A stretch of DNA of 64,000 nt from Arenibacter antarcticus (GTDB lineage Bacteria > Bacteroidota > Bacteroidia > Flavobacteriales > Flavobacteriaceae): the NCBI RefSeq assembly GCF_041320605.1, contig NZ_CP166679.1, forward strand, positions 4,450,001 through 4,514,000, given 5' to 3'. Positions 17,880-37,709 of the stretch are shown piece by piece. Position 1 is the stretch's first letter, and every line of letters begins with the position of its first letter. Position numbers and translations under genes: made by a program. The notes beneath the pieces were generated by a model. That model had not been told where the DNA came from, did not search any database, and saw only the letters and a program-made list of their open reading frames with translations.

Positions 17880-19442
17880 ATGAAAAGAATTTTGTTTGTT
17901 GCACTGGGCCTGACTATGGCGTGCAATTCATCGCAAAAAACCGTTACTAAACAGACGGATCAAAAGTTAGCGAATGTAGACCCATTTACCTACGCCGAAA
18001 CAATTACGGAATCGGAATTAAAGGACCATCTATATATCTATGCCTCTGACGAATTTGAAGGTAGGGATACCGGGAAACCAGGACAGAAGATGGCTGTAGA
18101 ATACATAAGGGCGGAATATGTTAAGTTGGGAATCCCAGCTGCAAAAGCGGACGGGGATTATTTTCAAGACGTTCCCTTAAGTATTAACAAATTACCTATA
18201 GGCGGCATCACCATTAACGGGAAGGATTATAGGAATGGTGAAGGAGTCCTCAGTTTTTCCAGTGCCTCGGGTAAATATGATAATTTAGTGTATGTGAGCA
18301 ATGGCATTGAGGAAGAAAATTATTCGGATTATGCAGGATTGGACGTAAAGGGAAAAATAGTTTTGATGAAAGCAGGGGAGCCTGTGAATGCGGATGGCAC
18401 CTACACCCTTTCTGGAAACGACGAAAAATCTGTTTGGAGCAATATGTCCGAATCTATTGGAAAAAGAATGGAATTGGCAGAAGCCAAAGGCGCTCTAGGA
18501 GTACTCTATTTTGATGGTGACAATTACAACAGGTTTAAGAATAGATTCAACTATATGCAGACTAATGATAGTGGGCGTATGGGTCTAAAAGCTGACGATG
18601 CAGGGGATTTTTTCAACTTAATCATAGATGCGACCATTGCAAATGCACTACTGCCCAATATATTGGAAGAGAATAAATCCAAATCGGTCCCTACCCAGCT
18701 AGAGCTGAATATAGAGAGTGATAACGAGGAAATTCATTCCGAAAATGTAGTAGCTTTTATAAAAGGTTCAGAGAAACCTAATGAGTACATTATTATTTCT
18801 TCCCACTTAGATCATGTAGGCGTAAATAAGGAAGGTGAAATTTTCAACGGTGCAGACGATGATGGTTCTGGAACTGTAGGAATGCTGGAAATAGCACAGG
18901 CCTTTAAAGCTGCGGCCGATGCAGGTCATGGTCCAAAAAGATCGATTGTATTTTTACACGTTACAGCGGAGGAGAAAGGTTTGTTGGGATCCAAGTTTTA
19001 TGCAGACTACGACCCTATCTTTCCATTGGCCAACACAGTCGCCAATCTAAATATTGATATGATCGGGAGAATAGACCCAAACCGAAAAGGGGATAGAAAT
19101 TATATTTATCTTATTGGTTCGGACAAGTTAAGTACTGAACTTCATGATCTTTCCGAAGAGGTTAACCAAAAATATATGAATATTGAATTGGATTATACCT
19201 ATAACGATGAGAACGATCCCAACCGTTTTTATTACAGGAGCGACCATTATAATTTTGCCAAGAACAATATTCCGATTATATTTTATTTTAACGGGACTCA
19301 TGAAGATTATCACCTACCTGGAGATACTCCTGATAAAATAAACTATGATCTTTTAGAAAACAGGTCGAGATTGGTATTCCTTACTGCTTGGGAGCTAGCC
19401 AATCGCGACGCAAGGATTATCGTAGACAAGGTGGCTAAATAA
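17880..19442 (+). CDS. M28-family zinc aminopeptidase, lipoprotein
   Basis: A 520-residue metallopeptidase. A lipoprotein signal (FVALGLTMAC, Cys 15) is followed by an inserted PA-like domain (about 110-270) and the M28 catalytic core. Zinc ligands in order: His near 309 (SSHLDHVG), Asp near 326 (GADDDGSG), the Glu pair near 363 (TAEEKG), Asp 392 (NIDMIGR) and His near 456 (YRSDHYNFA). It probably trims peptides outside the cytoplasm. It is divergent from the hydroxyproline operon, which may use its products, but that link is only positional. Confidence 0.88.
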   Translation: MKRILFVALGLTMACNSSQKTVTKQTDQKLANVDPFTYAETITESELKDHLYIYASDEFEGRDTGKPGQKMAVEYIRAEYVKLGIPAAKADGDYFQDVPLSINKLPIGGITINGKDYRNGEGVLSFSSASGKYDNLVYVSNGIEEENYSDYAGLDVKGKIVLMKAGEPVNADGTYTLSGNDEKSVWSNMSESIGKRMELAEAKGALGVLYFDGDNYNRFKNRFNYMQTNDSGRMGLKADDAGDFFNLIIDATIANALLPNILEENKSKSVPTQLELNIESDNEEIHSENVVAFIKGSEKPNEYIIISSHLDHVGVNKEGEIFNGADDDGSGTVGMLEIAQAFKAAADAGHGPKRSIVFLHVTAEEKGLLGSKFYADYDPIFPLANTVANLNIDMIGRIDPNRKGDRNYIYLIGSDKLSTELHDLSEEVNQKYMNIELDYTYNDENDPNRFYYRSDHYNFAKNNIPIIFYFNGTHEDYHLPGDTPDKINYDLLENRSRLVFLTAWELANRDARIIVDKVAK

Positions 19443-19483
19443 TAGGCTAGTATTGTTGTCGTTTCACCTTTGAATAAACACAT

Positions 19484-19523
19484 AAGAACGGGGACCTGAA
19501 ATTAATTTCAAGTCCCCGTTCTT
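19484..19523 (+). terminator. Terminator after M28 peptidase
   Basis: Twenty-base arms (AAGAACGGGGACCTGAAATT and its complement with one mismatch) abutting at the centre, followed by a short T-rich stretch. Confidence 0.75.
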
Positions 19524-19644
19524 TGTTTAGTACAGGTTTACATCACCTTTAATATGGCTAATCGAGTACTGCCTAAAGCACAGGTGTAATGGGAATTCCT
19601 AAGAAAACCAGATAAGGTTATATTCCAAACAATCCTGAACTTTT

Positions 19645-19707
19645 ATGTTGAACATCGTAATTATCACTATATTAATTTCAACAATTTATCAAATCGTTAT
19701 AATTTAG
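19645..19707 (+). CDS. Putative leu operon leader peptide (Ile/Val-rich)
   Basis: A 20-codon ORF 71 bases upstream of leuC. Thirteen of the 19 residues after Met are branched-chain: nine Ile, two Val, two Leu (it contains NIVIITILI and ends IVII). This composition is typical of leader peptides that sense charged Ile/Val/Leu tRNA. The last two sense codons (ATA ATT) can pair with a matching segment just after the stop, as in the ilvD leader of this window. Intergenic AT-richness raises Ile codon frequency by chance, so caution is needed. No good promoter box was found upstream. Confidence 0.45.
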   Translation: MLNIVIITILISTIYQIVII

Positions 19708-19741
19708 CTCCAATTATATTTTCAGGGCAGTTGCCTGTTTT
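19698..19741 (+). promoter_or_regulatory. Possible leuC attenuator hairpins
   Basis: TATAATT (19698-19704, inside the leader ORF) pairs perfectly with AATTATA (19712-19718) across the stop codon. A small GC-rich hairpin, CAGGGCAGTTGCCTG (19723-19737), is followed by TTTT. A weak alternative pairing CAATT (19711-19715) with AGTTG (19729-19733) would compete with both. Stems are short (5-7 bp), so this is much weaker than the ilvD element. Confidence 0.3.
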
Positions 19742-19778
19742 AAATAGTATACAAATAAGTAGTTTATAATATAGTAAA

Positions 19779-21185
19779 ATGAAAAAAACATTATTCGATA
19801 AGGTTTGGGATTCCCATGTTGTACACACCATAGAAAATGGTCCTGACGTACTTTTTATAGATCGCCATATGATACATGAAGTTACTAGTCCTGTAGCTTT
19901 TCTTGGCTTAAAAAGCAGGGGCATTCCTGTGATGTATCCCGAAAAAACCTTTGCGACCGCAGATCACAATACCCCTACCATAAACCAACATTTACCGGTA
20001 GAAGATCCCCTTTCTGCCAATCAGCTTAGGGCATTGGAGGAAAATTCCAAATTACACGGTATCTCCTATTGGGGATTGGGGCATGAAAAAAACGGAATCG
20101 TTCACGTGGTTGGGCCGGAATATGGAATTACACAGCCTGGAGCCACTATAGTTTGTGGGGATTCACATACCTCTACGCATGGTGCTTTTGGTGCCATTGC
20201 CTTTGGTATAGGAACCTCGGAAGTAGAAATGGTATTGGCCACACAATGTATTATGCAACAAAAGGCCAAATCTATGCGGATCAATGTTAACGGGTCCCTA
20301 AGTCGAGGTGTCACCCCAAAAGATGTTGCCCTTTACATTATCTCTAAGCTTTCCACTTCTGGAGCTACTGGGTATTTTGTAGAATATGCTGGCGAAGTGT
20401 TCCGCAATATGAGTATGGAAGGTAGGATGACCGTCTGTAACCTAAGTATAGAAATGGGTGCCCGTGGCGGTATGATTGCTCCTGATGAACAAACCTTTGA
20501 ATATATTAAAGGAAGAGAATTTACGCCAGTTGGAGAAGCTTGGGATAAAGCTATGGCCTATTGGAGTACCTTAAAAACAGACGATGGTGCACAATTTGAT
20601 CAAGAAGTGACTTTTGATGCTGCCGATATTGAACCCATGATTACCTACGGTACCAATCCAGGTATGGGAATGGGAATTTCTAACGGGATACCTATGGCGG
20701 AAGCTGTGGAAGGCGGAGTAGCCACCTATAAAAAATCTCTTCAGTATATGGCCTTTAACGAAGGCGACAACATGATCGGTAAACCAATCGATTTTGTCTT
20801 TTTAGGAAGTTGTACCAACGGTCGTATAGAAGACTTTAGGGCTTTTGCTTCTATTGTAAAAGGAAGGAAGAAGGCTGATAATGTTACCGCATGGCTTGTA
20901 CCGGGATCACATAATGTAGTAACCTCCATACGCGAGGAAGGTATTTTGGATATTTTACACGAAGCAGGATTTGAACTACGCGAACCAGGTTGCTCGGCTT
21001 GTTTGGCTATGAATGATGATAAGGTGCCTACTGGAAAATATGCCGTAAGTACCTCTAACCGAAATTTTGAAGGCAGACAAGGTCCAGGTTCAAGAACACT
21101 TTTGGCTAGTCCATTGGTGGCAGCTGCGGCAGCCGTTACAGGTAAGGTTACGGATCCAAGGGTGCTAATGGAAGAATTGGTTTAA
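19779..21185 (+). CDS. leuC: 3-isopropylmalate dehydratase large subunit
   Basis: Large subunit of isopropylmalate isomerase in leucine synthesis. The 468-residue protein has the 4Fe-4S ligands Cys 345 (GSCTNGR), Cys 405 and Cys 408 (PGCSACLAM), and substrate motifs such as [14 protein letters not shown]. It is first of leuC-leuD-leuA-leuB. The region 19524-19778 between the peptidase terminator and this gene holds the putative leader peptide; nothing else is assignable there. Confidence 0.97.
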
Positions 21186-21981: not shown

Positions 21982-23499
21982 ATGAAAAGAAGAAAAATTG
22001 AAATAATGGATACCACCCTCCGCGATGGGGAACAAACTTCTGGGGTATCCTTTTCTGCATCCGAAAAGCTGACCTTGGCAAAATTATTGTTGGAGGAACT
22101 TAAGGTAGACAGGATTGAAGTAGCCTCCGCTAGGGTTTCGGAAGGCGAGCTTTCTGCGGTAAAACAGATAACTGAATGGGCCGGGAAAGTTGGGTATTTG
22201 GACCGAATAGAGGTCCTTACTTTTGTGGATAACGGGGTTTCTCTGGATTGGATGAAAAATGCCGGGGCAAAAGTTCAAAATTTGCTTACCAAAGGTTCTA
22301 TGAACCATTTGATTCATCAGTTAAAAAAAACTCCTGATCAACACTTTAAGGAAATCCAAGCCACTCTTACTGCTGCAGGTGCGGAAGGCATCTCCAGTAA
22401 TATTTATTTGGAGGATTGGAGCAACGGGATGAGAAATTCTAAAGATTATGTTTTTCAATTTTTAGATTTTTTGGCCACCCAACCCGTAAAACGAATTTTA
22501 CTTCCTGATACCTTAGGAATTCTTACCCATACCCAGACACACGAATACATGTCGGAAATAGTAACGCGTTATCCGGAAATGCATTTCGATTTTCATGGAC
22601 ATAACGATTATGACCTAAGTGTTTCCAATGTAATGGAAGCCGTAAAGGCCGGGTGTCACGGTCTCCATCTTACCGTTAACGGCATGGGAGAAAGGGCTGG
22701 TAACGCTCCGATGGCGAGTGTAATAGCAGTCATAAATGATTTCCTACCCGAGGTAGAGGTTACAGTAAACGAATCATCCCTACATAAAGTAAGCAAGGTT
22801 GTATCTGTATTTACAGGATTTGGTATCCCGGCCAACAAACCTATTGTGGGCGACAATGTGTTTACCCAAACAGCAGGAATACATGCTGATGGAGACAATA
22901 AGAAGAATTTATATTTTAACGATTTAATGCCAGAACGCTTTGGTAGGAAGCGAAAATACGCCCTTGGAAAGACATCTGGCAAGGCCAATATTCAAAAGAA
23001 TTTACAGGAACTTGGACTTACCCTGAATGATGAGGAACTCAAAAAGGTTACTGCTAGAATTATTGAACTCGGTGATAAAAAAGAAAAGGTAACCAAAGAC
23101 GACCTACCTTTTATTATTTCCGATGTATTGGACAGTTATACCTACCAACAAAAGGTTTTTATAAAATCGTATGTACTTACACACGCTAAGGGATTAAAGC
23201 CATCCTCTACCCTAGCTATAGAAATAAATGGAGAATTAATAGAGGCCCATGCCCAAGGGGACGGTCAGTATGATGCCTTTATAAATGCGCTTAAAAAGGT
23301 ATACGCCTCAAAAAATCTAAAGTTACCGTTGTTGGTGGACTATGCGGTACGGATTCCTCCAGGGAGTAATTCCGATGCCTTATGCGAAACGATTATCACA
23401 TGGGATTGTAATGGGAAGGAGTTTGTTTCCAGAGGATTGGATTCCGACCAAACGGTATCGGCAATAAAAGCCACAGAAAAAATGTTAAATATTATTTAA
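21982..23499 (+). CDS. 2-isopropylmalate synthase-type enzyme with LeuA regulatory domain
   Basis: A 505-residue HMGL-like acyltransferase: N-terminal TIM barrel with MDTTLRDGEQTSGVSFS, metal-binding FHGHND (His 205, His 207) and GMGERAGNAPMAS, then a C-terminal LeuA-type dimer/regulatory domain (about 370-505). Placed between leuD and leuB it most simply performs 2-isopropylmalate synthesis. Its sequence is of the shorter Bacteroidota type, which also resembles citramalate synthase, so substrate choice is not certain; ilvA in this window makes a citramalate route unnecessary. Confidence 0.85.
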   Translation: MKRRKIEIMDTTLRDGEQTSGVSFSASEKLTLAKLLLEELKVDRIEVASARVSEGELSAVKQITEWAGKVGYLDRIEVLTFVDNGVSLDWMKNAGAKVQNLLTKGSMNHLIHQLKKTPDQHFKEIQATLTAAGAEGISSNIYLEDWSNGMRNSKDYVFQFLDFLATQPVKRILLPDTLGILTHTQTHEYMSEIVTRYPEMHFDFHGHNDYDLSVSNVMEAVKAGCHGLHLTVNGMGERAGNAPMASVIAVINDFLPEVEVTVNESSLHKVSKVVSVFTGFGIPANKPIVGDNVFTQTAGIHADGDNKKNLYFNDLMPERFGRKRKYALGKTSGKANIQKNLQELGLTLNDEELKKVTARIIELGDKKEKVTKDDLPFIISDVLDSYTYQQKVFIKSYVLTHAKGLKPSSTLAIEINGELIEAHAQGDGQYDAFINALKKVYASKNLKLPLLVDYAVRIPPGSNSDALCETIITWDCNGKEFVSRGLDSDQTVSAIKATEKMLNII

Positions 23500-28174: not shown

Positions 28175-29428
28175 TTAGATTAGGTATTGAAAAAGATCGG
28201 GCTTGTCGTTTATATAATCACCATAAAAGTTATTTTCCTTCATGCGCTTAACCAAAGGCTCCAAGTCTTCTGGACTTTTTAATTCGATTCCTACGACTGC
28301 TGGTGCATTCTCTTTGCTCGATTTTTTTGAATATTCAAAATGGGTGATATCATCGTCTGGACCTAAAATTTCGGCCACAAACTGTTTCAAGGCACCTGGA
28401 CGCTGGGGGAAACGCACTATAAAATAATGCTTTAACTTTCCATACAAAAGGGCCCTTTCTTTTATTTCTGCAGTTCTGGTTATATCGTTATTACTTCCAC
28501 TGACCACACAGACCACATTTTTGCCCTTAATCTCCTCCTTATAATCATCAAGAACTGTAAGGGTCAGTGCACCTGCCGGTTCTACCACTATGGCGTCCCT
28601 ATTGTATAAATCCAGAATAGTCTGGCAGACCTTCCCTTCTGGTACGGTGACCATATCGTAAAGATAGTCCTTACAGATGTTAAACGTAAAGTCCCCTACC
28701 CGTTTTACTGCAGCTCCATCGACAAATTTATCGATCTGATCCAATTCCGTATTCTTTCCTTTTTCCATTGATGTTTTCATGGAGGGAGCCCCTTCTGGTT
28801 CCACTCCTATGATTTTGGTCTGTGGAGATAGAGCCTTAAAGACAGCGCAAAGTCCAGAAGCCAAACCGCCACCACCAACAGCTACAAAAAGGTAGTCTAT
28901 GGGAACCTTGGATTGCTCTAAAATCTCCAATCCCACGGTTGCCTGACCCTCAATTATTTTGGGATCATCAAACGGATGGATAAAGGTTTTCTTATTGTCG
29001 GAACAATATACCTTAGCTGCTTTGGAAGAATCGTCAAAAGAATCTCCTTCCAACACTACGGTCACCCATTTTCCTCCAAATAACTTTGTCTGCTCCACCT
29101 TTTGTTTTGGTGTCACGGAAGGCATATAAATGATTCCGTTAATTCCTAAATGGTTACAGGCAAAAGCCACGCCCTGTGCATGGTTACCTGCACTAGCACA
29201 AACCACACCGTTAACCAATTGTTCCGGATCCAAAGAACTGATCTTATTAAATGCACCCCTTATTTTATAGCTTCTTACCCGCTGAAGGTCTTCCCGTTTT
29301 AATAAAATATTGGCATCGTATGTTTTGGAATAACGAATACTCTGCATTAATGGGGTAATATCTGCTACTTGACGAACCGTAATCGCCGCCTTCCGAACAT
29401 CTTCAATTTTTGGAAAATACGAATTCAT
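28175..29428 (-). CDS. ilvA: Threonine ammonia-lyase (threonine deaminase)
   Basis: PLP enzyme giving 2-oxobutyrate, the entry to isoleucine synthesis. The 417-residue protein has the PLP Lys 55 in RSYKIRGAF, SAGNHAQG and the phosphate-binding VGGGGLASG, then a C-terminal ACT-like domain (about 325-417) typical of feedback-regulated biosynthetic forms. It is the last gene of the ilv operon. An intrinsic terminator sits immediately before it, so its expression may be lower or separately controlled. Confidence 0.93.
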   Translation of the reverse strand: MNSYFPKIEDVRKAAITVRQVADITPLMQSIRYSKTYDANILLKREDLQRVRSYKIRGAFNKISSLDPEQLVNGVVCASAGNHAQGVAFACNHLGINGIIYMPSVTPKQKVEQTKLFGGKWVTVVLEGDSFDDSSKAAKVYCSDNKKTFIHPFDDPKIIEGQATVGLEILEQSKVPIDYLFVAVGGGGLASGLCAVFKALSPQTKIIGVEPEGAPSMKTSMEKGKNTELDQIDKFVDGAAVKRVGDFTFNICKDYLYDMVTVPEGKVCQTILDLYNRDAIVVEPAGALTLTVLDDYKEEIKGKNVVCVVSGSNNDITRTAEIKERALLYGKLKHYFIVRFPQRPGALKQFVAEILGPDDDITHFEYSKKSSKENAPAVVGIELKSPEDLEPLVKRMKENNFYGDYINDKPDLFQYLI

Positions 29429-29435
29429 AAATGTG

Positions 29436-29477
29436 AAAAAAAAAGACCTGCCCAGTTAAAAATTTCCGACAGGTCTT
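29436..29477 (-). terminator. Intra-operon terminator between ilvC and ilvA
   Basis: On the minus strand AAGACCTGTC pairs with GGCAGGTCTT (10 bp, one wobble, 15-base loop) and runs into nine T. The T-tract ends seven bases before the ilvA ATG. Confidence 0.7.
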
Positions 29478-29496
29478 ATTATACGTTTAATTTATA

Positions 29497-30972
29497 TTAC
29501 ACAATAGGCTTCATAGCGGTCATGGATGCACGCAACCTTGCCCCTACTATTTCTACCGGATGCTCGCGCAATGCCTTGTTTACAGCAATCAACTTAGCAT
29601 TGTCCACTCCTAAATGTTTTTCATCGGCAAAGTGCTTTCCAATGACATCTGTTTCGATGGATGTCATAAAGTCTGCCAACAATGGCTTACAGGCATGGTC
29701 AAATAGGTAACACCCGTACTCGGCAGTATCCGAAATAACCCTGTTCATTTCAAATAATTTCTTTCTAGCAATAGTATTTGCGATCAATGGAGTTTCATGC
29801 AAGGACTCGTAATATGCAGATTCCGCGATTATCCCAGATTCTGTCATTGCTTCAAAAGCCAATTCCACTCCGGCACGTACCATAGCCACCATCAATACCC
29901 CATGGTCATAAAATTCTTGTTCAGAAATTTTATCGGAACTCGCTGGTGTTTTTTCAAAAGCAGTCTCTCCCGTAGCCGCTCTCCAAGTCAATAAGTTCTT
30001 ATCATCATTAGCCCAGTCTTCCATCATGGTTTTGGAGAAATGGCCACTCATGATATCGTCCATATGCTTATGAAAAAGAGGACGCATAATATCCTTCAAT
30101 TCTTCTGAAAGTTCAAACGCCTTTATTTTAGCCGGATTAGACAAACGATCCATCATATGGGTAATTCCACCATATTTTAATCCTTCTGTAACGGTTTCCC
30201 AACCGTACTGTACCAATTTGGAGGCATAGCCTGCATCGATCCCCTTTTCGATCATTTTATCGAAACATAAGATAGAACCGGTTTGCAGCAAGCCACATAA
30301 AATAGTTTGTTCCCCCATTAAATCGGACTTCACTTCAGCTACAAAAGAAGATTCCAAAACTCCCGCTTTGTGACCTCCTGTAGCAACAGCATACGCTTTT
30401 GCCTGTGCCAATCCCTTACCTTCGGGGTCATTATTTGGGTGAACCGCAATCAATGTTGGCACCCCAAATCCTCTTTTATATTCTTCTCTTACTTCAGAAC
30501 CGGGGCATTTTGGAGCCACCATAATAACGGTAAGATCTTCACGGATTTCCATTCCCTCTTCCACCATATTAAAACCATGTGAATACGATAGGGTAGCTCC
30601 CTTTTTCATTAACGGCATAATGGCGGTTACTACGGCCGTATGTTGTTTGTCTGGCGTTAAATTAATTACTAGGTCAGCAGTTGGGATCAATTCTTCATAA
30701 GTTCCTACATTAAAACCATTCTCAGAAGCATTTACAAAAGACTGTCTTTTTTCTTTAATAGCTGCATCCCTAAGGGTATAGGAAATATCCAACCCAGAAT
30801 CGCGCATATTAAGACCTTGGTTCAATCCTTGGGCTCCGCATCCTACTATAACAATTTTTTTTCCTTGTAATGCCGATACCCCGTCAGAAAATTCAGAAGA
30901 TTCCATAAATCTACATTTTCCCAATTGAGTTAATTTCTCCCTTAATGATAGCGTATTAAAATAATTTACCAT
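29497..30972 (-). CDS. ilvC: Ketol-acid reductoisomerase (class II, long form)
   Basis: Mg- and NADPH-dependent enzyme converting acetolactate or acetohydroxybutyrate to the dihydroxy acid. The 491-residue length is the long class II form. [24 protein letters not shown] is the Rossmann motif (about residues 33-56); [22 protein letters not shown] and the repeated C-terminal knotted domain follow. It lies 44 bases after ilvN in the ilv operon. Confidence 0.96.
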
Positions 30973-31016
30973 TTTTTAAAATCGATTTTTATCCTGACGT
31001 TTATCAGGGTTATTAT

Positions 31017-31541
31017 TTATTGATTAAATTCTTTTAGAATTGCCGAAATCTGCATTTCGGCCTTGGAAACGGCTATTCTCCCCGAACGTACAAATTGCAT
31101 GATACCATACGGCTTTAATTGCTGATACATTTCGTCTATTTCATTTCTTCTACCGCTTTTCGCCAAAACAAAATACTCCCTAGAAACAGTCACAATTTGG
31201 GCATTGCTTTCCTTGATTATATTCTGAATATTTCTTTCGTCGAACAATAAGGTAGAAGCCACTTTGAACAATGCAGACTCCTGATAAATAGTCTCCTCAT
31301 CGGTATGGCTAAAGGCTTTAATAACCTCAATTTGTTTTTCAACCTGCCCCACAATATTACGCACCCATTCATCAGTAGTATACACTACAATGGTGAATTT
31401 AGAAACGTTGTCTATTTCTGATTTTGAAACATTTAAGCTCTCTATATTAATATGTCGCTTTAAGAATATTCCTGATATCCTGTTCAGTAACCCTACACTA
31501 TTTTCGGAGTATACTGAAATCGTAAACCATTTTTTTTCCAT
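31017..31541 (-). CDS. ilvN: Acetolactate synthase small regulatory subunit
   Basis: A 174-residue regulatory subunit with an N-terminal ACT domain (TISVYSENSVGLLNRISGIFLKRHINIESLNVS) and the IlvN/IlvH C-terminal domain. It confers valine feedback on IlvB. Unusually, its gene is separated from ilvB by a methyltransferase gene. Confidence 0.93.
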   Translation of the reverse strand: MEKKWFTISVYSENSVGLLNRISGIFLKRHINIESLNVSKSEIDNVSKFTIVVYTTDEWVRNIVGQVEKQIEVIKAFSHTDEETIYQESALFKVASTLLFDERNIQNIIKESNAQIVTVSREYFVLAKSGRRNEIDEMYQQLKPYGIMQFVRSGRIAVSKAEMQISAILKEFNQ

Positions 31542-31607
31542 CTCCCAATATCTTGCCCTTCCGATTATTAAAGGAAACTTTCGGGCAATTTTAAATTAAT
31601 ATTAATT

Positions 31608-32195
31608 CTATTTCCTTACTGCAATGATCAATCCGGTGGACCAATTTATTTTTGTGATGACCAGATCTTTTCTTTTCTCTAGATCAGCCACCAAATTATC
31701 TACATTTTCCTGATGTCCCTCTGGCCAGTTTGGTTGTGCCAATAGATCGTCTATAACATAATAGCCACCCACCTTAATTAGGGCTAATAGTTCGTCTAAC
31801 CGACTGTATTTCCCTGGCCAAGCATCAGCGAAGACCAAATCAAATTTCTCCCCTTTATAACTATTGATCCATTTAGCGCCATCGTCACAAACTATTTGAA
31901 CGCGTTTATCCTGACCAAAAAATCCTTCTGCAATTTTACAGAGTTCAGGATCATTATCCACGGTTATTAGCACTGAATCTTCGTCCATTCCGGCAACCAT
32001 CCAGGATAATGAAAGTCCAATTCCAGTACCCAATTCCAAAAAGCGGGACTTAGGTTTGGAAGCAATCAAGGTTTTCAACAAAGATCCTATATAAAGGTCC
32101 GAAGGCATAGTGAAACCAATCTCGTTAGATTTCATTTCTATTTCAGAATGATACAATGGTCTGTCCAAAATATTAAAATCGTTCATGAGCCCCAT
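31608..32195 (-). CDS. SAM-dependent O-methyltransferase-like protein inside ilv operon
   Basis: A 195-residue class I methyltransferase: motif I FLELGTGIGLSLSW at 52-65, Asp 80 at the end of beta-2 (ITVDND), VFADAWPGKY at 122-130 and the DD pair at 149-150, in the pattern of catechol-type O-methyltransferases. It has about 37 bases to ilvB and 66 to ilvN, so it is co-transcribed. An alternative ATG at 32186 would remove three residues. No known branched-chain step needs a methyltransferase; substrate unknown. Confidence 0.8.
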   Translation of the reverse strand: MGLMNDFNILDRPLYHSEIEMKSNEIGFTMPSDLYIGSLLKTLIASKPKSRFLELGTGIGLSLSWMVAGMDEDSVLITVDNDPELCKIAEGFFGQDKRVQIVCDDGAKWINSYKGEKFDLVFADAWPGKYSRLDELLALIKVGGYYVIDDLLAQPNWPEGHQENVDNLVADLEKRKDLVITKINWSTGLIIAVRK

Positions 32196-32231
32196 TTAAA
32201 ACCTTTAAAAACACAGGTGTATATAGTATTG

Positions 32232-33965
32232 TTATTTCAATCTAATATCCGATACCGATGCCCCTGCAGGAATCATTGGAAAGACATTATCTTCCTTTTC
32301 TACTTTAACTTCTAAAAAGTAAGCGTCTTTGGAGGCCATCATTTCTTGTATGGTTGCCTTTAGGTCCTTGCGTTCACTTACCCGTTTTGCCTGAATATCA
32401 TACCCTTCAGCAATTTTCACAAAGTCTGGATTTACCATTACGGTAGAAGCATATCTACTTTCAAAAAACAATTCCTGCCATTGACGTACCATCCCCAAAT
32501 GATCATTGTTCAATACCACGATTTTTACAGGGGTCTTGTTTTGAAAGATAGTTCCCAACTCCTGAATTGTCATTTGGTATCCTCCATCACCAATAATAGC
32601 CACAACTTCCCTATCCATGGCTCCCATTTTGGCTCCTATTGCCGCTGGTAAAGCAAAACCCATTGTCCCTAATCCACCGGAGGTTACATTACTTTTGCTT
32701 TGTTTAAATTTGGCATATCTACATGCAATCATTTGGTGCTGACCAACATCGGATACTATAATTGCCTTATGCCCGGAGGCAATATTGATTTCCTCTATAA
32801 CTTCGGCCATAGTGAGTTTATCCTTGGTAGGATAAACATCATTTTTTATGACCTGTTCAAATTCTATCTTATATTTTTCCTTAAATTCATTGTGCCAAGA
32901 TTCGTGTTTGTTAGATTTGATCAAAGGCAACAATAAATCCAAGGTCATCTTTGAGTCGCCCAAGACTGCTACATCAGCCTTTACGTTTTTGTTTATTTCC
33001 GCAGGGTCTATGTCGAAATGAATTATTTTTGCCTGTTTTGCATAGGTATCCAAACTTCCGGTAACCCTATCATCAAAACGCATACCGATGGCTATCAACA
33101 CATCACACTCATTAGTCAATAAATTGGGCCCATAATTCCCGTGCATCCCTACCATTCCAACATTTAGGGGATGATCGGTATCCATTGCAGAAAGTCCCAA
33201 AACGGTCCACGCTGCAGGAATTCCCGCCTTTTCCACCAATGCCTTTAATTGTTCCTCAGCTTTCCCTAAAATAACCCCTTGTCCAAACACAATAAATGGC
33301 TTTTTGGCCGCATTGATCAAATCGGCCGCAATTTCGATCGATTTTGGATCTGGCTTTGGGTATGGAATATAGCTACGCACACCCTTGCAATGCTCATAAC
33401 TAAAGTCAAATTCTTCAAATTGCGCGTTTTTGGTAATATCTACCAATACTGGGCCAGGTCTACCTGACCTTGCTATATAAAAAGCCTTGGCTAATACTTT
33501 CGGTATTTCCGAAGCCTCGGTCACTTGACAGTTCCATTTGGTAACTGGTGTAGAGATTCCTATGATATCTGTTTCCTGAAAGGCATCCGAACCCAATAAA
33601 TGGCGAGATACCTGCCCGGTTATACACACCATTGGAGTAGAGTCTATCTGAGCATCCGCCAAACCGGTCACCAAATTGGTTGCACCGGGACCTGAGGTTG
33701 CCACTGCCACCCCTACCTTACCCGTTACCCTTGCATAGCCTTGAGCGGCATGAGTAGCTCCCTGTTCGTGCCGAGTTAGGATATGGGTAAGTTTATCCTG
33801 AAACTTATACAACTCGTCATAGAGCGGCATAATGGCGCCACCGGGATACCCGTAAATTAAATCTACCCCCTCTGCTAAAAGACAATGGATAATAGCTTCG
33901 GCACCACTTATTCTCATGGTAACTTTTTTTACTGATTCTGCTTTTTCCTTTTTCAATGTTTCCAT
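32232..33965 (-). CDS. ilvB: Acetolactate synthase large catalytic subunit
   Basis: ThDP enzyme condensing pyruvate with pyruvate or 2-oxobutyrate. The 577-residue protein has catalytic Glu 67 in TRHEQGATHAAQGYAR, the FAD-domain centre and a ThDP/Mg motif beginning GDGGYQMTIQEL in the C-terminal third, and the GMVRQWQELFFESRY segment typical of AHAS. It follows ilvD by 76 bases. Confidence 0.96.
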   Translation of the reverse strand: METLKKEKAESVKKVTMRISGAEAIIHCLLAEGVDLIYGYPGGAIMPLYDELYKFQDKLTHILTRHEQGATHAAQGYARVTGKVGVAVATSGPGATNLVTGLADAQIDSTPMVCITGQVSRHLLGSDAFQETDIIGISTPVTKWNCQVTEASEIPKVLAKAFYIARSGRPGPVLVDITKNAQFEEFDFSYEHCKGVRSYIPYPKPDPKSIEIAADLINAAKKPFIVFGQGVILGKAEEQLKALVEKAGIPAAWTVLGLSAMDTDHPLNVGMVGMHGNYGPNLLTNECDVLIAIGMRFDDRVTGSLDTYAKQAKIIHFDIDPAEINKNVKADVAVLGDSKMTLDLLLPLIKSNKHESWHNEFKEKYKIEFEQVIKNDVYPTKDKLTMAEVIEEINIASGHKAIIVSDVGQHQMIACRYAKFKQSKSNVTSGGLGTMGFALPAAIGAKMGAMDREVVAIIGDGGYQMTIQELGTIFQNKTPVKIVVLNNDHLGMVRQWQELFFESRYASTVMVNPDFVKIAEGYDIQAKRVSERKDLKATIQEMMASKDAYFLEVKVEKEDNVFPMIPAGASVSDIRLK

Positions 33966-34041
33966 AATCGTAGACCTAATCGGTTAACATATTGGCATCT
34001 CTACCCTTAAATTTCCTTGTTCGGGAAATGTTTGTTTATAA

Positions 34042-35724
34042 TTAAAATTCATCGGTAACGCATCCTTTTGATGCAGATGATACTGTTTTGGCATATTTAT
34101 ATAGGACACCACGCTGAAACTTCAATTTTGGTGCCACCCATTTTGCTCTTCTATGCTGTAATTCTTCGTCTGAAATTTCAATATTTATAGTATTTTTCTC
34201 AGCATCTATCGCAATAATATCCCCATTTTCAACTAAAGCTATATTCCCACCGTCTTGAGCTTCTGGAGCAACATGCCCCACCACAAAACCATGAGAACCA
34301 CCAGAGAAACGACCATCTGTAATTAAAGCTACATCTTTACCTAAACCTGCTCCCATAATAGAAGACGTTGGCTTTAGCATTTCTGGCATTCCCGGCCCTC
34401 CTTTTGGGCCTTCATATCGAATAATAACGACATCACCTTTCTTGACCTTACCATTTTTAATGCCTTCGTTTACAGCATCTTCACCATCAAATACATTTGC
34501 TGTTCCTTTAAAATATAGGCCTTCTTTTCCCGTAATTTTGGCTACAGCACCTTCGGTGGCCAAGTTTCCGAAAAGAATTCGAATGTGCCCTGTTTCTTTT
34601 ATGGGCTTATCCAAGGTCCTTACAATATCCTGACCTTCCAGTAAATTAGGGACGTTTTCTAAGTTTTCGGCCAACGTTTTACCTGTTACGGTTAAACAAT
34701 CACCATGAAGCATATCGTTATCCAATAAGTATTTTAATACCCCTGGAATACCCCCTACGGCATGCAGTTCTTCCATTGAATATTTCCCACTTGGCTTAAG
34801 ATCTGCCAATAAAGGCGTGTTATCACTAAGCCTTTTAAAATCTTCTAAAGTAAATTCTATCTGCGCCGCTTTAGCTATTGCCAAGAAGTGAAGTACCGCA
34901 TTGGTAGAACCACCAAGTACCGTAACCAATCTAAAAGCATTTTCCAAAGACTTCTTTGAAACAATATCTGAAGGCTTAATATCTCTTTCCAACAAAAGAC
35001 GTAACGCTTCACCAGCTTTTATAGATTCTTGTTCTTTTAATTTGCCATCACTTACTGCAGGATTTGAGGAATTATATGGTAATGACATTCCCAAAGCCTC
35101 AATTGCAGAAGCCATAGTGTTTGCTGTATACATACCGCCACAAGCACCTGCGCCTGGACATGCTTTATGAATAACCTCTTTAAATTCTGACTCATCAATG
35201 GTTCCAGCTACTTTTTGACCATAGGCTTCGAAAGCAGAAATAATATCTAATTTTTTTCCGTTATGACACCCTGAAGCTATAGTTCCACCGTACACTAAAA
35301 TGGAAGGTCTATCTAAACGCAACATGGCCATTAAGGCACCAGGCATATTCTTATCACACCCAACAACAGTGATAAGACCATCATAGCTCATCCCCTCTAC
35401 TACGGTTTCCATAGAGTCTGCAATAATATCTCTAGAAGGCAATGAATAACGCATCCCTGGAGTACCATTTGCTATGCCATCACTAACGCCAATTGTATTA
35501 AAAATTAGTCCTATTAAACCAGCATTTTCAGTGCCCTTCTTAATATGAACCGCCAAATCATTTAAATGCATATTACAGGGATTGCCCTCGTAACCAGTAC
35601 TAGCTATTCCTATCAAAGGTTTTTTTAGATCTTCATCCGTTAAACCAATAGCGTGTAACATAGCCTGTGCAGCTGGTAATGTAGGGTCTTGTGTAACAGT
35701 CTTACTGTATTTATTTAATTCCAT
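34042..35724 (-). CDS. ilvD: Dihydroxy-acid dehydratase
   Basis: Iron-sulfur dehydratase, third shared step of Ile/Val synthesis. The 560-residue protein has cluster ligands Cys 50 (YEGNPCNMH), Cys 123 (VGCDKNMPG) and Cys 195 ([15 protein letters not shown]) and the C-terminal [19 protein letters not shown]. It is first of the six-gene ilv operon. Upstream lies 415 bases containing a leader peptide, attenuator-like hairpins and a second promoter candidate close to the gene. Confidence 0.96.
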
Positions 35725-35773
35725 CGATCTGTATTCTTTTCTAATTTTAATACTATGCTTTCACTATGACTTT

Positions 35774-35781
35774 CAAAGATA
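35774..35781 (-). promoter_or_regulatory. Candidate proximal -7 box TATCTTTG for ilvD
   Basis: Exact TAnnTTTG match on the minus strand, 49 bases upstream of the ilvD ATG and downstream of the attenuator. If used, it would bypass attenuation. No -33 TTTG. Confidence 0.35.
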
Positions 35782-35972
35782 ACGGTTTAAAACCCCTATG
35801 TGCTTTAACATAAAAGAATGATTTAAATTCAATTATCTAGATTTGATTTCAAACAGCTCAAAATCAATTAGTTAAAGTTGTAATTCATATCATATTCAGT
35901 AGGATTTATTCTTGTCCTATTTCATTTTATAGATCTCTATTTCCGTAAAAAACTATATTTAAAAATTTTAAT

Positions 35973-36052
35973 AAAAAAAGCCTGCATCAAATGAATCTGA
36001 TACAGGCTTTTTTAATCAAAAGAAATCCGTATCACCCCTTTATGGGATAATA
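35973..36052 (-). promoter_or_regulatory. Putative ribosome-mediated attenuator of the ilv operon
   Basis: Three mutually exclusive pairings are visible on the minus strand. Pair 1:2 joins the last leader codons (36052-36044) to 36038-36030, 9 bp with two G-U and a 5-base loop. Pair 2:3 joins TGATACGG (36034-36027) to CCTGTATCA (36006-35998), 8 bp with one bulge. Pair 3:4 is an intrinsic terminator: GCCTGTATCA (36007-35998) with TGATGCAGGC (35989-35980), followed by seven T. Region 2 is shared by the first two pairs and region 3 by the last two. This is the logic of ilv/trp-type attenuation. The terminator could also end pxpC read-through. Confidence 0.65.
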
Positions 36053-36087
36053 ATGACTACATTGATTATATTCTTATTTATTTTCAT
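36040..36087 (-). CDS. Putative ilv operon leader peptide
   Basis: A 15-codon ORF, MKINKNIINVVIIIP, with six Ile and two Val, seven of them in the final nine residues. It ends 33 bases before the terminator arm and its Ile codons form arm 1 of the attenuator. The end VVIIIP resembles the control region of the enterobacterial ilv leader peptides. It lies between pxpC and ilvD. No Shine-Dalgarno is seen; a promoter-like pair ends 4 bases before the ATG, so the mRNA may be leaderless. Confidence 0.6.
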   Translation of the reverse strand: MKINKNIINVVIIIP

Positions 36088-36091
36088 CGAG

Positions 36092-36122
36092 TAAAACTAG
36101 TAATTAAAAATTAGAACGCAAA
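36092..36122 (-). promoter_or_regulatory. Candidate promoter of ilv leader (TTTG-N19-TAGTTTTA)
   Basis: Minus-strand TTTG (36122-36119), 19-base spacer, then TAGTTTTA (36099-36092), 7 of 8 matches to TAnnTTTG. The spacing is canonical. The predicted start falls at or next to the leader ATG. Confidence 0.4.
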
Positions 36123-36139
36123 AAAATTAGAATCATTTT

Positions 36140-36979
36140 CTATTTTAACATAAAACTGATGTAATCTCCAGATTTTTTTTGAGCCAAAATAGCAATGGAA
36201 CTGTCGGAAAGTTGCAATATTCTAGGATATCCCCCTGTGGTCTGTCCGTCCTTCATAAGAATGATTAATTTTCCCGATGGCGTCAACTGAACTGTCCCCG
36301 GTAAAGTTGCAGAGGTGAGCATAGACATATCGCAGCCGTCTATAGTTTCATTTAATTGGTAAGCCATTCTGTTATTTTCCTTTGCGACAGAAAACTCCAT
36401 GGAAAACAATTTACCCAATTGCCTATCCGTCAATTCCCCAAATTCTGGACCCCTGTATACTTCAAGAGTCATACTGTCTAGTCCTGAATCTACCTTGATC
36501 TCAGAAATTTTCGGATCAAAGTCCTTAAAAGGCACATAGGGCAAACTCACCAATGTTTTTATAGAGTTTCTCTCTGTAACTGGAGCGTAAAAAGACCTAC
36601 TCCCTAAAACAGGTGCAGTCTTAAATCCGTCTTTGACCGCTAAATAGGCACGAAATCCGACCTCCAATTTACCATAGGCCAGTACATCTCCCTTTTTCAC
36701 CTTATAAACCTTGTAGTTTAAAATTCTAATATTGTTCAGGGTGGCCATCATTTCTGCACCGCCTAGGGCAATGTAGGTTTCCTCCTTGAATTCCAAGGTA
36801 GGTCCGGTCATAGTGATTTCCAAAACGGCAGAATTTTCATCATTTTCCAAAATGGCATTGAGCTTGGAAGCTGCATAGGCATCCATTACCCCTGAAACTG
36901 GAACACCCATGTCCCTATATCCAAATCTACCGGAATCCTGCACTGTAGTAAAAAAACCTGGTTTTAAAATATTAAGCAT
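36140..36979 (-). CDS. pxpC: 5-oxoprolinase subunit C (PxpC, biotin-dependent carboxyltransferase-like)
   Basis: A 279-residue KipA/AHS2-domain protein: GFFTTVQDSGRFGYRDMGVPVSGVMD at the N-terminus and QTTGGYPRILQLSDSSIAILAQ near the C-terminus are diagnostic. With PxpA and PxpB it forms the prokaryotic ATP-dependent 5-oxoprolinase that opens pyroglutamate to glutamate. Its start overlaps pxpB by 8 bases. Last gene of the operon. Confidence 0.92.
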   Translation of the reverse strand: MLNILKPGFFTTVQDSGRFGYRDMGVPVSGVMDAYAASKLNAILENDENSAVLEITMTGPTLEFKEETYIALGGAEMMATLNNIRILNYKVYKVKKGDVLAYGKLEVGFRAYLAVKDGFKTAPVLGSRSFYAPVTERNSIKTLVSLPYVPFKDFDPKISEIKVDSGLDSMTLEVYRGPEFGELTDRQLGKLFSMEFSVAKENNRMAYQLNETIDGCDMSMLTSATLPGTVQLTPSGKLIILMKDGQTTGGYPRILQLSDSSIAILAQKKSGDYISFMLK

Positions 36980-37709
36980 CCAACGCTATTTTTTCTATTT
37001 TATAGATTCCGACTTCACTTTCAATTAGATGCAACTGATATTCCCCTTTGGAGATAGGGTAAAATTGAATTTTATCGCCCACCTTTACGAAGCAAGGTTC
37101 TTCTTTTTGAGAATTGAACATTGCAACAGAACAACTCCCTATTATATTCCAACCCCCAGGGGAATCTTGGGGATATACACCCGTTTGTTTCCCTGCAAGT
37201 GCTACAGAACCTTTGAGTACCTTGGCACGTGGGGTAGCTCTCCTAGGCACCTCCAAGGCTTCCGGCACACCTCCTAAATACATGAATCCTGGCAAAAACC
37301 CTATACCGTAAACAGTATAAATGGAAGTTGAGTGCAGTTCTATTATGCGGGCAGTAGTAAGATTTAAGTGAAGCGCGATCTCTTCCAAATCTATTCCAAA
37401 TTCCTGATCATAACACACGGGAAGCCTCCATAGATATCTATCTGATACTAAAACCTCTGTTTTTCGATCGTACCAATCTAAAAATTGTGGTTTTAGACCC
37501 GCGAAATCCAACTCCCTATCCTTACATACCAAAGTAAGGGAATTATAGGCAGGAATAAACTCCCATTCAGTTTCATTTAAGTGGTTATCCTTAAGGTAAC
37601 GGGAAAACTGCAGAATATCCACTAAAATAGCTTCTTCTACTTTTTTTGGCCATTCCACCAAAAGGGCATGTATTCCAAATTGCCGAACCGATATATTGTA
37701 ATTCCTCAA
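36972..37709 (-). CDS. pxpB: 5-oxoprolinase subunit B (PxpB/KipI)
   Basis: A 245-residue AHS1/KipI-domain protein with YGIGFLPGFMYLGGVPEALEVPRRATPRAKVLKGSVALAGKQTGVYPQDSPGGWNIIG, the family signature, at about 133-190. It works with PxpC as the ATP-using half of 5-oxoprolinase. It overlaps pxpA by 4 bases and pxpC by 8, which implies translational coupling. Confidence 0.93.
   Translation of the reverse strand: MRNYNISVRQFGIHALLVEWPKKVEEAILVDILQFSRYLKDNHLNETEWEFIPAYNSLTLVCKDRELDFAGLKPQFLDWYDRKTEVLVSDRYLWRLPVCYDQEFGIDLEEIALHLNLTTARIIELHSTSIYTVYGIGFLPGFMYLGGVPEALEVPRRATPRAKVLKGSVALAGKQTGVYPQDSPGGWNIIGSCSVAMFNSQKEEPCFVKVGDKIQFYPISKGEYQLHLIESEVGIYKIEKIALDA

Follow-up and report, generated by a model that had tools for sequence, protein, structure and literature searches.

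The ilvD locus and its neighbourhood

The genome of Arenibacter antarcticus measures 4.69 Mb and forms a single contig, of which one stretch of 64,000 nucleotides (referred to below as the window) was analysed. Its minus strand carries the following genes, which presumably constitute one operon, ilvD-ilvB-(methyltransferase)-ilvN-ilvC-ilvA:

34042-35724, minus strand: ilvD (TIGR00110), opening the operon presumed to be controlled
28175-33965, minus strand: ilvB, an O-methyltransferase-like gene, ilvN, ilvC and ilvA, 3' of ilvD in that order

The O-methyltransferase-like gene (PF01596; 31608-32195, minus strand) sits between ilvB and ilvN. The leader region that is the subject of this work is located on the same strand between pxpC (end 36140) and ilvD (start 35724); the NCBIfam matches of pxpC are 5-oxoprolinase subunit C and relatives, every one of them below cut-off. 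Among named IlvD proteins, the one from Arenibacter latericius is the closest (93%); the region upstream of ilvD in that species (L003) is identical in the alignment to the congener locus L097. Elsewhere in the window, a gene between leuD and leuB (21982-23499, plus strand) scores 659 bits against (R)-citramalate synthase CimA, below the cut-off of 950, and at most 313 bits against 2-isopropylmalate synthase models, far under the CimA score; this CimA-like gene may feed the formation of isoleucine from pyruvate. In a 700-nt stretch spanning the beginning of leuCDAB (19101-19800), the detector described below found no leader rich in isoleucine, leucine and valine (ILV-rich).

A leader peptide directly behind a promoter-like box

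Upstream of ilvD a promoter-like pair of elements, designated P1, precedes a short open reading frame:

36119-36122, minus strand: TTTG, the -33-like element of P1, spaced 19 nt from the -7-like box in 18/18 genus sequences
36092-36099, minus strand: TAGTTTTA, the -7-like box of P1 (TAnnTTTG type, 5/6), with 4 nt between its end and the leader AUG
36040-36087, minus strand: leader peptide ORF MKINKNIINVVIIIP, stop TAA, predicted to begin no more than 1 nt from the transcript 5' end

The ORF runs from the ATG at 36087 to the TAA at 36040 and comprises 15 codons, among which six specify isoleucine and two valine (8/15): ATG AAA ATA AAT AAG AAT ATA ATC AAT GTA GTC ATT ATT ATC CCA TAA. Only the tetranucleotide CTCG forms the spacer between the P1 box and the ATG. 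The architecture TTTG-N19-TAnn(T/A)TT(A/G), ending 4-5 nt 5' of the leader ATG, is found in all 18 genus sequences, and a box matching at least 5/6 positions at this gap of 4-5 nt occurs in 18/18 of them as compared with 4.2% of shuffled upstream regions. Note that a box anywhere within 48 nt occurs in 62% of shuffles, and that only the fixed gap is informative. In Flavobacterium psychrophilum the TAnnTTTG box is described as occupying positions -12 to -5 (PMC9723704), which places the predicted start site in the window at the first base of the leader AUG. With the promoter box this close to the AUG (4-5 nt away in 18/18 sequences), the message begun at P1 is probably leaderless.

Three alternative hairpins

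From the Ile codons onward, the following segments can be recognized:

36044-36052, minus strand: segment 1 (Ile codons), pairing with 36038-36030
36027-36038, minus strand: segment 2, of which 36038-36030 pairs with segment 1 and 36034-36027 with segment 3
35998-36007, minus strand: segment 3, the terminator 5' arm GCCTGTATCA, of which 36005-35998 is used in the antiterminator
35980-35989, minus strand: segment 4, the terminator 3' arm TGATGCAGGC, pairing with segment 3
35973-35979, minus strand: T7 tract of the intrinsic terminator, read from the sequence

Stem 1:2 (36052-36044 with 36038-36030) comprises 9 bp, two G-U among them, and stem 2:3 (36034-36027 with 36005-35998) comprises 8 bp, one of them G-U, and the terminator core 3:4 joins 36007-35998 to 35989-35980 before the T7 tract. 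In the window, the TAA of the leader is 5 nt from 36034. The leader region folds at -41.4 kcal/mol as compared with a shuffled mean of -18.2 (z = -7.7; 0/200 shuffles as low). The individual free energies are -10.7 kcal/mol for 1:2, -23.0 kcal/mol for 3:4 and, computed without segment 4, -10.0 kcal/mol for 2:3 (4/300 shuffles as low). Stem 3:4 is thus favoured on energy alone once segment 4 has been made, and antitermination would have to be kinetic, as in classical systems. A generic promoter and terminator scan was uninformative: for 34000-37000 it reported one terminator, fewer than the shuffled mean of 1.8, and this was the 1:2 hairpin, the 3:4 hairpin being absent from its list. The case for an attenuator therefore rests mainly on comparative evidence.

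Much of this arrangement had been proposed in an earlier note, made from the sequence of the window. The promoter-like pair, the 15-codon ORF ending in Val and Ile codons and a Pro codon, the 9-bp pairing of the Ile codons with the bases after the stop and the intrinsic terminator at 36007-35980 with its seven T are all found as it described them. The 8-bp pairing that it proposed between segment 2 and the terminator also exists and does share segment 2; however, its segment 3 had been drawn one base too long, beginning at 36006 instead of 36005.

Occurrence in the genus, the family and beyond

Among 199 genomes of the family that were searched, 164 contained an IlvD match. A total of 150 places were listed, nearly all representing one genome per genus; the own genome, a congener (G015) and G024, G031, G068 and G092 were omitted from these, for reasons including nearness to contig ends and partial or contaminated sequence. 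From this list 144 regions were prepared and 140 used, each covering 720 nt 5' of the match start and a further 61 nt. The detector required an intrinsic terminator together with a 9-40-codon ORF, no more than 110 nt 5' of it, in which 6/10 residues or more were I, L or V. Such an ILV-rich leader and terminator were found in 65/140 family regions, twice in 10 of these, as compared with 0/140 in each of five dinucleotide shuffles and 6/140 on the reverse strand. When all 1140 amino-acid triples were ranked, ILV came out on top (65), followed by INV (64) and FIV (62); as these next-best triples also contain I and V, it is these two residues that carry the signal. The remaining 75/140 loci have no attenuator by this detector, and some of them are misses, such as A. 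latericius L003, the terminator loop of which is longer than permitted. A looser version permitting longer loops gave 66/140 (shuffles 0-1, reverse strand 6), and a relaxed threshold of at least 5/10 ILV residues gave 69/140 (reverse strand 14). In the set of named loci the detector was positive in 31/80; the named and family sets overlap (for instance, L019 and L207 carry the same leader) and their counts are not additive. The named positives include Saprospiraceae metagenome-assembled genomes (MAGs), an Ignavibacteriae MAG and Elizabethkingia, and elements of this kind therefore extend beyond Flavobacteriaceae.

An RNA model of the element matches the site in 18/18 genus genomes (own genome included; nine were used in building the model). 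When 296 genomes of the phylum were searched with it, 43 had a match at E <= 0.001. Only four sites, that of the window and three others from its family, scored above 80 bits. Scores of 56-65 were obtained for two sites in genome G460 and one further site in the own genome, and the remainder gave 35-49 bits, several of them lying on the strand opposite to another match. The weak sites are taken as chance matches or generic terminators. Four weaker matches in the own genome (L275-L278) have no ILV-rich leader by the detector.

The attenuators were grouped according to the sequence of their terminator arm: class A has CCTTC/CTTCC, class B has a CCTGTATC-like arm, and the rest are unclassed; these labels are coined here. 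P1-type spacing, with a gap of 4-5 nt, is seen in 19/25 single class-B loci when later in-frame ATGs are permitted, and in class-A leaders standing in first position the box lies 8-11 nt 5' of the ATG in 31/55.

Covariation and pairing specificity

Pairing was evaluated in an alignment (A2) of 29 class-B leaders, consisting of the window, 8/17 congeners and 20/36 other class-B leaders (16 from the family set, four named). It left out 16 others: 12 tandem second leaders, three with long upstream extensions (L125, L146 and L184) and L019, the double of L207. In stem 1:2, 95.4% of the cells are paired, with two-sided changes at 5/9 pairs (15 cells), a value reached by 0/500 shuffles; inside the genus (18 sequences) 100% of its cells are paired, the changes being one-sided only, with no double compensation. 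Stem 3:4 is paired in 98.6% of the cells (n = 29) and has three doubly changed pairs. In stem 2:3, 98.3% of the cells are paired though 6/8 pairs vary, always on one side, and slid versions of this stem reach at most 44% pairing. Double compensatory changes in stem 2:3 were seen at 0/8 pairs of the 29 sequences, and the shuffle control for this stem is uninformative. In these sequences, stem 2:3 is consequently supported by retained pairing and not by covariation.

The specificity of the antiterminator pairing can also be judged by exchanging partners. Paired with its own terminator arm, segment 2 gave a stronger duplex than it did on average with other-class arms in 37/37 cases of class B, 37/56 of class A and 12/18 unclassed; the native duplex was also stronger than that of shuffled segment 2 in 36/37, 49/56 and 14/18, respectively. 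Segment 2 opens with the TGA stop codon of the leader in 22/29 class-B loci of the family. Given the footprint of a ribosome, this placement of the stop codon would let a terminating ribosome mask the segment.

Loss of the ORF or of the stems in relatives had been named beforehand as evidence that would speak against an attenuator; both are retained throughout the 18 genomes of the genus, the own one among them, as well as in another 16 genera of the family and in four named loci. Of the three stems for which covariation had been anticipated, 1:2 shows it, and pairing is retained in 98% of the cells of 2:3 and of 3:4. This analysis provides a defined, covariation-supported element of Bacteroidota with named segments.

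Proposed mechanism

Very probably, the element upstream of ilvD controls the ilvD-ilvB-(methyltransferase)-ilvN-ilvC-ilvA operon as a ribosome-mediated transcription attenuator of the leader-peptide type. Transcription would begin at P1 on the leader AUG, and the ribosome would load onto the leaderless message. With ample charged tRNA-Ile and tRNA-Val, it would reach the stop codon and cover segment 2, the 2:3 antiterminator could not form, and the 3:4 terminator would end transcription. When isoleucine or valine is short, the ribosome would be expected to stall within GTA GTC ATT ATT ATC, covering segment 1, so that segment 2 would pair with segment 3 and read-through to ilvD would follow. 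If the leader were not translated at all, 1:2 and 3:4 would both form and transcription would stop. Control by charged tRNA, and with it translation, stalling and read-through, is what we infer from the arrangement of the codons, the stop and the stems.

A promoter-like module between the terminator and ilvD

Between the terminator and ilvD, a further set of conserved elements, designated P2, occupies 35774-35899:

35888-35899, minus strand: P2 motif 1 (CTGAATATGATA), found as TTGAAYATSATA with at most one mismatch in 74/140 family loci (shuffles 1.7%)
35821-35832, minus strand: P2 motif 2 (TTGAATTTAAAT), conserved in the aligned sequences and included in the family scan
35774-35781, minus strand: P2 -7-like box TATCTTTG, 57 nt before ilvD

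Motif 2 with at most two mismatches is present in 49/140 family loci (shuffles 12%), and the final 110 nt contain TAnnTTTG without mismatch in 66/140 (shuffles 12%). In class-B loci the P2 elements mostly start 66-67 and 50-52 nt apart (for instance in L143, L148, L163, L194 and L209), L117 deviating from this spacing. P2 is probably an independent promoter, active irrespective of the attenuator, and it is probably regulated. If P2 is active, attenuator-independent transcription would arise between the terminator and ilvD, and the attenuator would govern only those transcripts that begin upstream. The attenuator reading of the earlier note therefore stands as regards the conserved ORF and stems, but its view that transcription reaches ilvD through read-through would hold for transcripts from the upstream promoter only.

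It is conceivable, if rather unlikely, that the attenuator is real but secondary, with most ilvD transcription coming from P2 under a regulator acting on motifs 1 and 2. Such an arrangement would account for the invariance of TATCTTTG in 19/19 aligned sequences (those of the 18 genus genomes and that of the named A. latericius, a duplicate of one of the 18), for the presence of motif 1 in 33/75 loci without a detected attenuator, and for the fact that the two-motif pattern occurs only once in the own genome, at ilvD. However, P1, the leader and the stems are strongly conserved as well, which a marginal element would not need, and the window sequence has no TTTG at the 19-nt distance 5' of the P2 box.

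A very improbable alternative is that the leader senses a ligand, a tRNA or a protein directly, as a riboswitch, a T-box or a target of an RNA-binding protein, the ORF being untranslated. A premature terminator combined with an alternative structure is indeed typical of such elements, but a search with 4227 Rfam families, including leader families, T-box and riboswitch aptamers, gave no match at gathering score in the window; moreover, direct sensing would explain neither why ILV is the best of all triples in the short ORFs nor why the position of the stop codon is tied to segment 2. Least probable of all, and rejected here, is the notion that the hairpin merely terminates the upstream pxp operon behind an accidental ORF: pxpC does end on the same strand about 130 nt before the terminator core and also lies upstream in 9/65 family attenuator loci, but it is absent from the 720 nt upstream in the other 56/65, the promoter box stands directly before the leader throughout the genus, and the ILV codon content and the 1:2 covariation would be left unexplained.

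Tandem attenuators

At 14/97 attenuator loci (family and named sets plus the window) two attenuators follow each other, while ilvD of the window has a single one only. The order is class A then class B in 11 of these tandems and B then A in none, and three have unclassed arms (OB, OA and OO). The second leaders of 12 tandems, which are of class B, have no box in a fixed place (none at all in six, scattered in the others), and in L012 the second leader begins directly 3' of the T-tract of the first terminator; for these two reasons, tandem second leaders probably depend on read-through of the first terminator. Tandem pairs of leaders and attenuators are also present in an uncultured Aquimarina (L023) and in the Ignavibacteriae MAG (L032), and in genome G460 (L279) two matches of the RNA model lie side by side.

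'Tandem attenuators' is already an established term. The mgtCBR leader of Salmonella (PMC3641672) is described as containing two short ORFs, each linked to attenuation, as in the tandems reported here; unlike in mgtCBR as it is described there, the same residues abound in both ORFs of the present tandems, which precede genes of amino-acid synthesis. Since relatives have tandem versions, one-stage and two-stage attenuators of the same operon can be compared as they occur in nature.

At about even odds, control of ilvD in Flavobacteriaceae may be layered. Messages from P1, leaderless or nearly so, would pass two attenuator stages in series, the first with a class-A (GCCTTCC) and the second with a class-B (GCCTGTATCA) terminator, which would multiply stringency; an independent P2 would follow, its two operator motifs set a nearly constant distance apart. 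Individual lineages would have lost one stage or the other, the window keeping P1, stage B and P2.

Comparison with known attenuators

Enterobacterial ilv and leu attenuators consist of a branched-chain leader peptide, mutually exclusive 1:2, 2:3 and 3:4 pairings and an intrinsic terminator. The Arenibacter element resembles them in its branched-chain codons, its three pairings, its terminator and its position before a biosynthetic operon. It differs from them in having a leader of 15 codons with only Ile and Val among the branched-chain residues, no room for a Shine-Dalgarno sequence (the message being predicted leaderless), a Bacteroidota-type promoter box, a conserved second promoter-like module downstream and no Rfam match.

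Leader peptides on leaderless messages have precedents. In Streptomyces lividans, RNA-seq revealed attenuator leader peptides (ilvL, trpL1 and leuL) on leaderless transcripts (PMC8079986), so that the principle is not new. According to the description given there, these leaders belong to Actinobacteria and have other sequences, and their start was mapped whereas that of Arenibacter is predicted. A further likeness is found in the Corynebacterium ilvB-II motif, described as a branched-chain-rich upstream ORF of mostly 15-17 codons before an ilv operon, likewise with terminator and antiterminator (PMC10272879); it differs, as described, in phylum and sequence, and it precedes ilvBNC there, whereas ilvD comes first in Arenibacter. 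A survey published in 2010 stated that, before its own case in Firmicutes and to its authors' knowledge, no leader-peptide system had been shown outside Proteobacteria and Actinobacteria (PMC2965389). In Bacteroides, small ORFs have been described as reminiscent of leader peptides (PMC7366714), and leader-peptide attenuation in Bacteroidota has already been suggested in print.

Within the family Flavobacteriaceae itself, a close counterpart is leader-peptide attenuation in F. psychrophilum, where structured 5' elements are described at hisG and pheA (PMC9723704), in passages that give no peptide, operon list or stem model. This species is described there as being without Shine-Dalgarno sequences, and only 5.5% of its 890 mapped mRNAs are leaderless (PMC9723704). 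Whether attenuation by leader peptides operates on leaderless messages in F. psychrophilum can thus be tested directly. No paper describing the ilvD element was found among the ranked listings of one open-access collection, and an earlier description elsewhere is possible. The present analysis adds the defined ilvD element with its covariation and a start predicted to be leaderless, together with the A-B order of the tandems and the P2 module.

Other leaders of the Arenibacter antarcticus genome

A second ilvB/ilvN locus of the own genome carries two branched-chain-rich leaders, MKNITIISSIISAIVIIASAEGKL and MKTSAIISIIIICPSG, each with its own terminator, and His and Trp leaders are found in front of hisG and trpE:

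L274:2097-2350, at about 652.6-652.85 kb of contig C1, minus strand: tandem leaders of the second ilvB, found by the detector
L286:1184-1297, plus strand: His leader MKNNRTHHHHFFTFVQAS (HHHH) with intrinsic terminator, before hisG, own genome
L288 up to 1400, reverse complement: Trp leader MKNSISNTWWWNNLRKTS (WWW) with terminator at 1372-1400, before trpE, own genome

Given these leaders at the second ilvB, hisG and trpE, leader-peptide attenuation looks like a habit of Arenibacter antarcticus.
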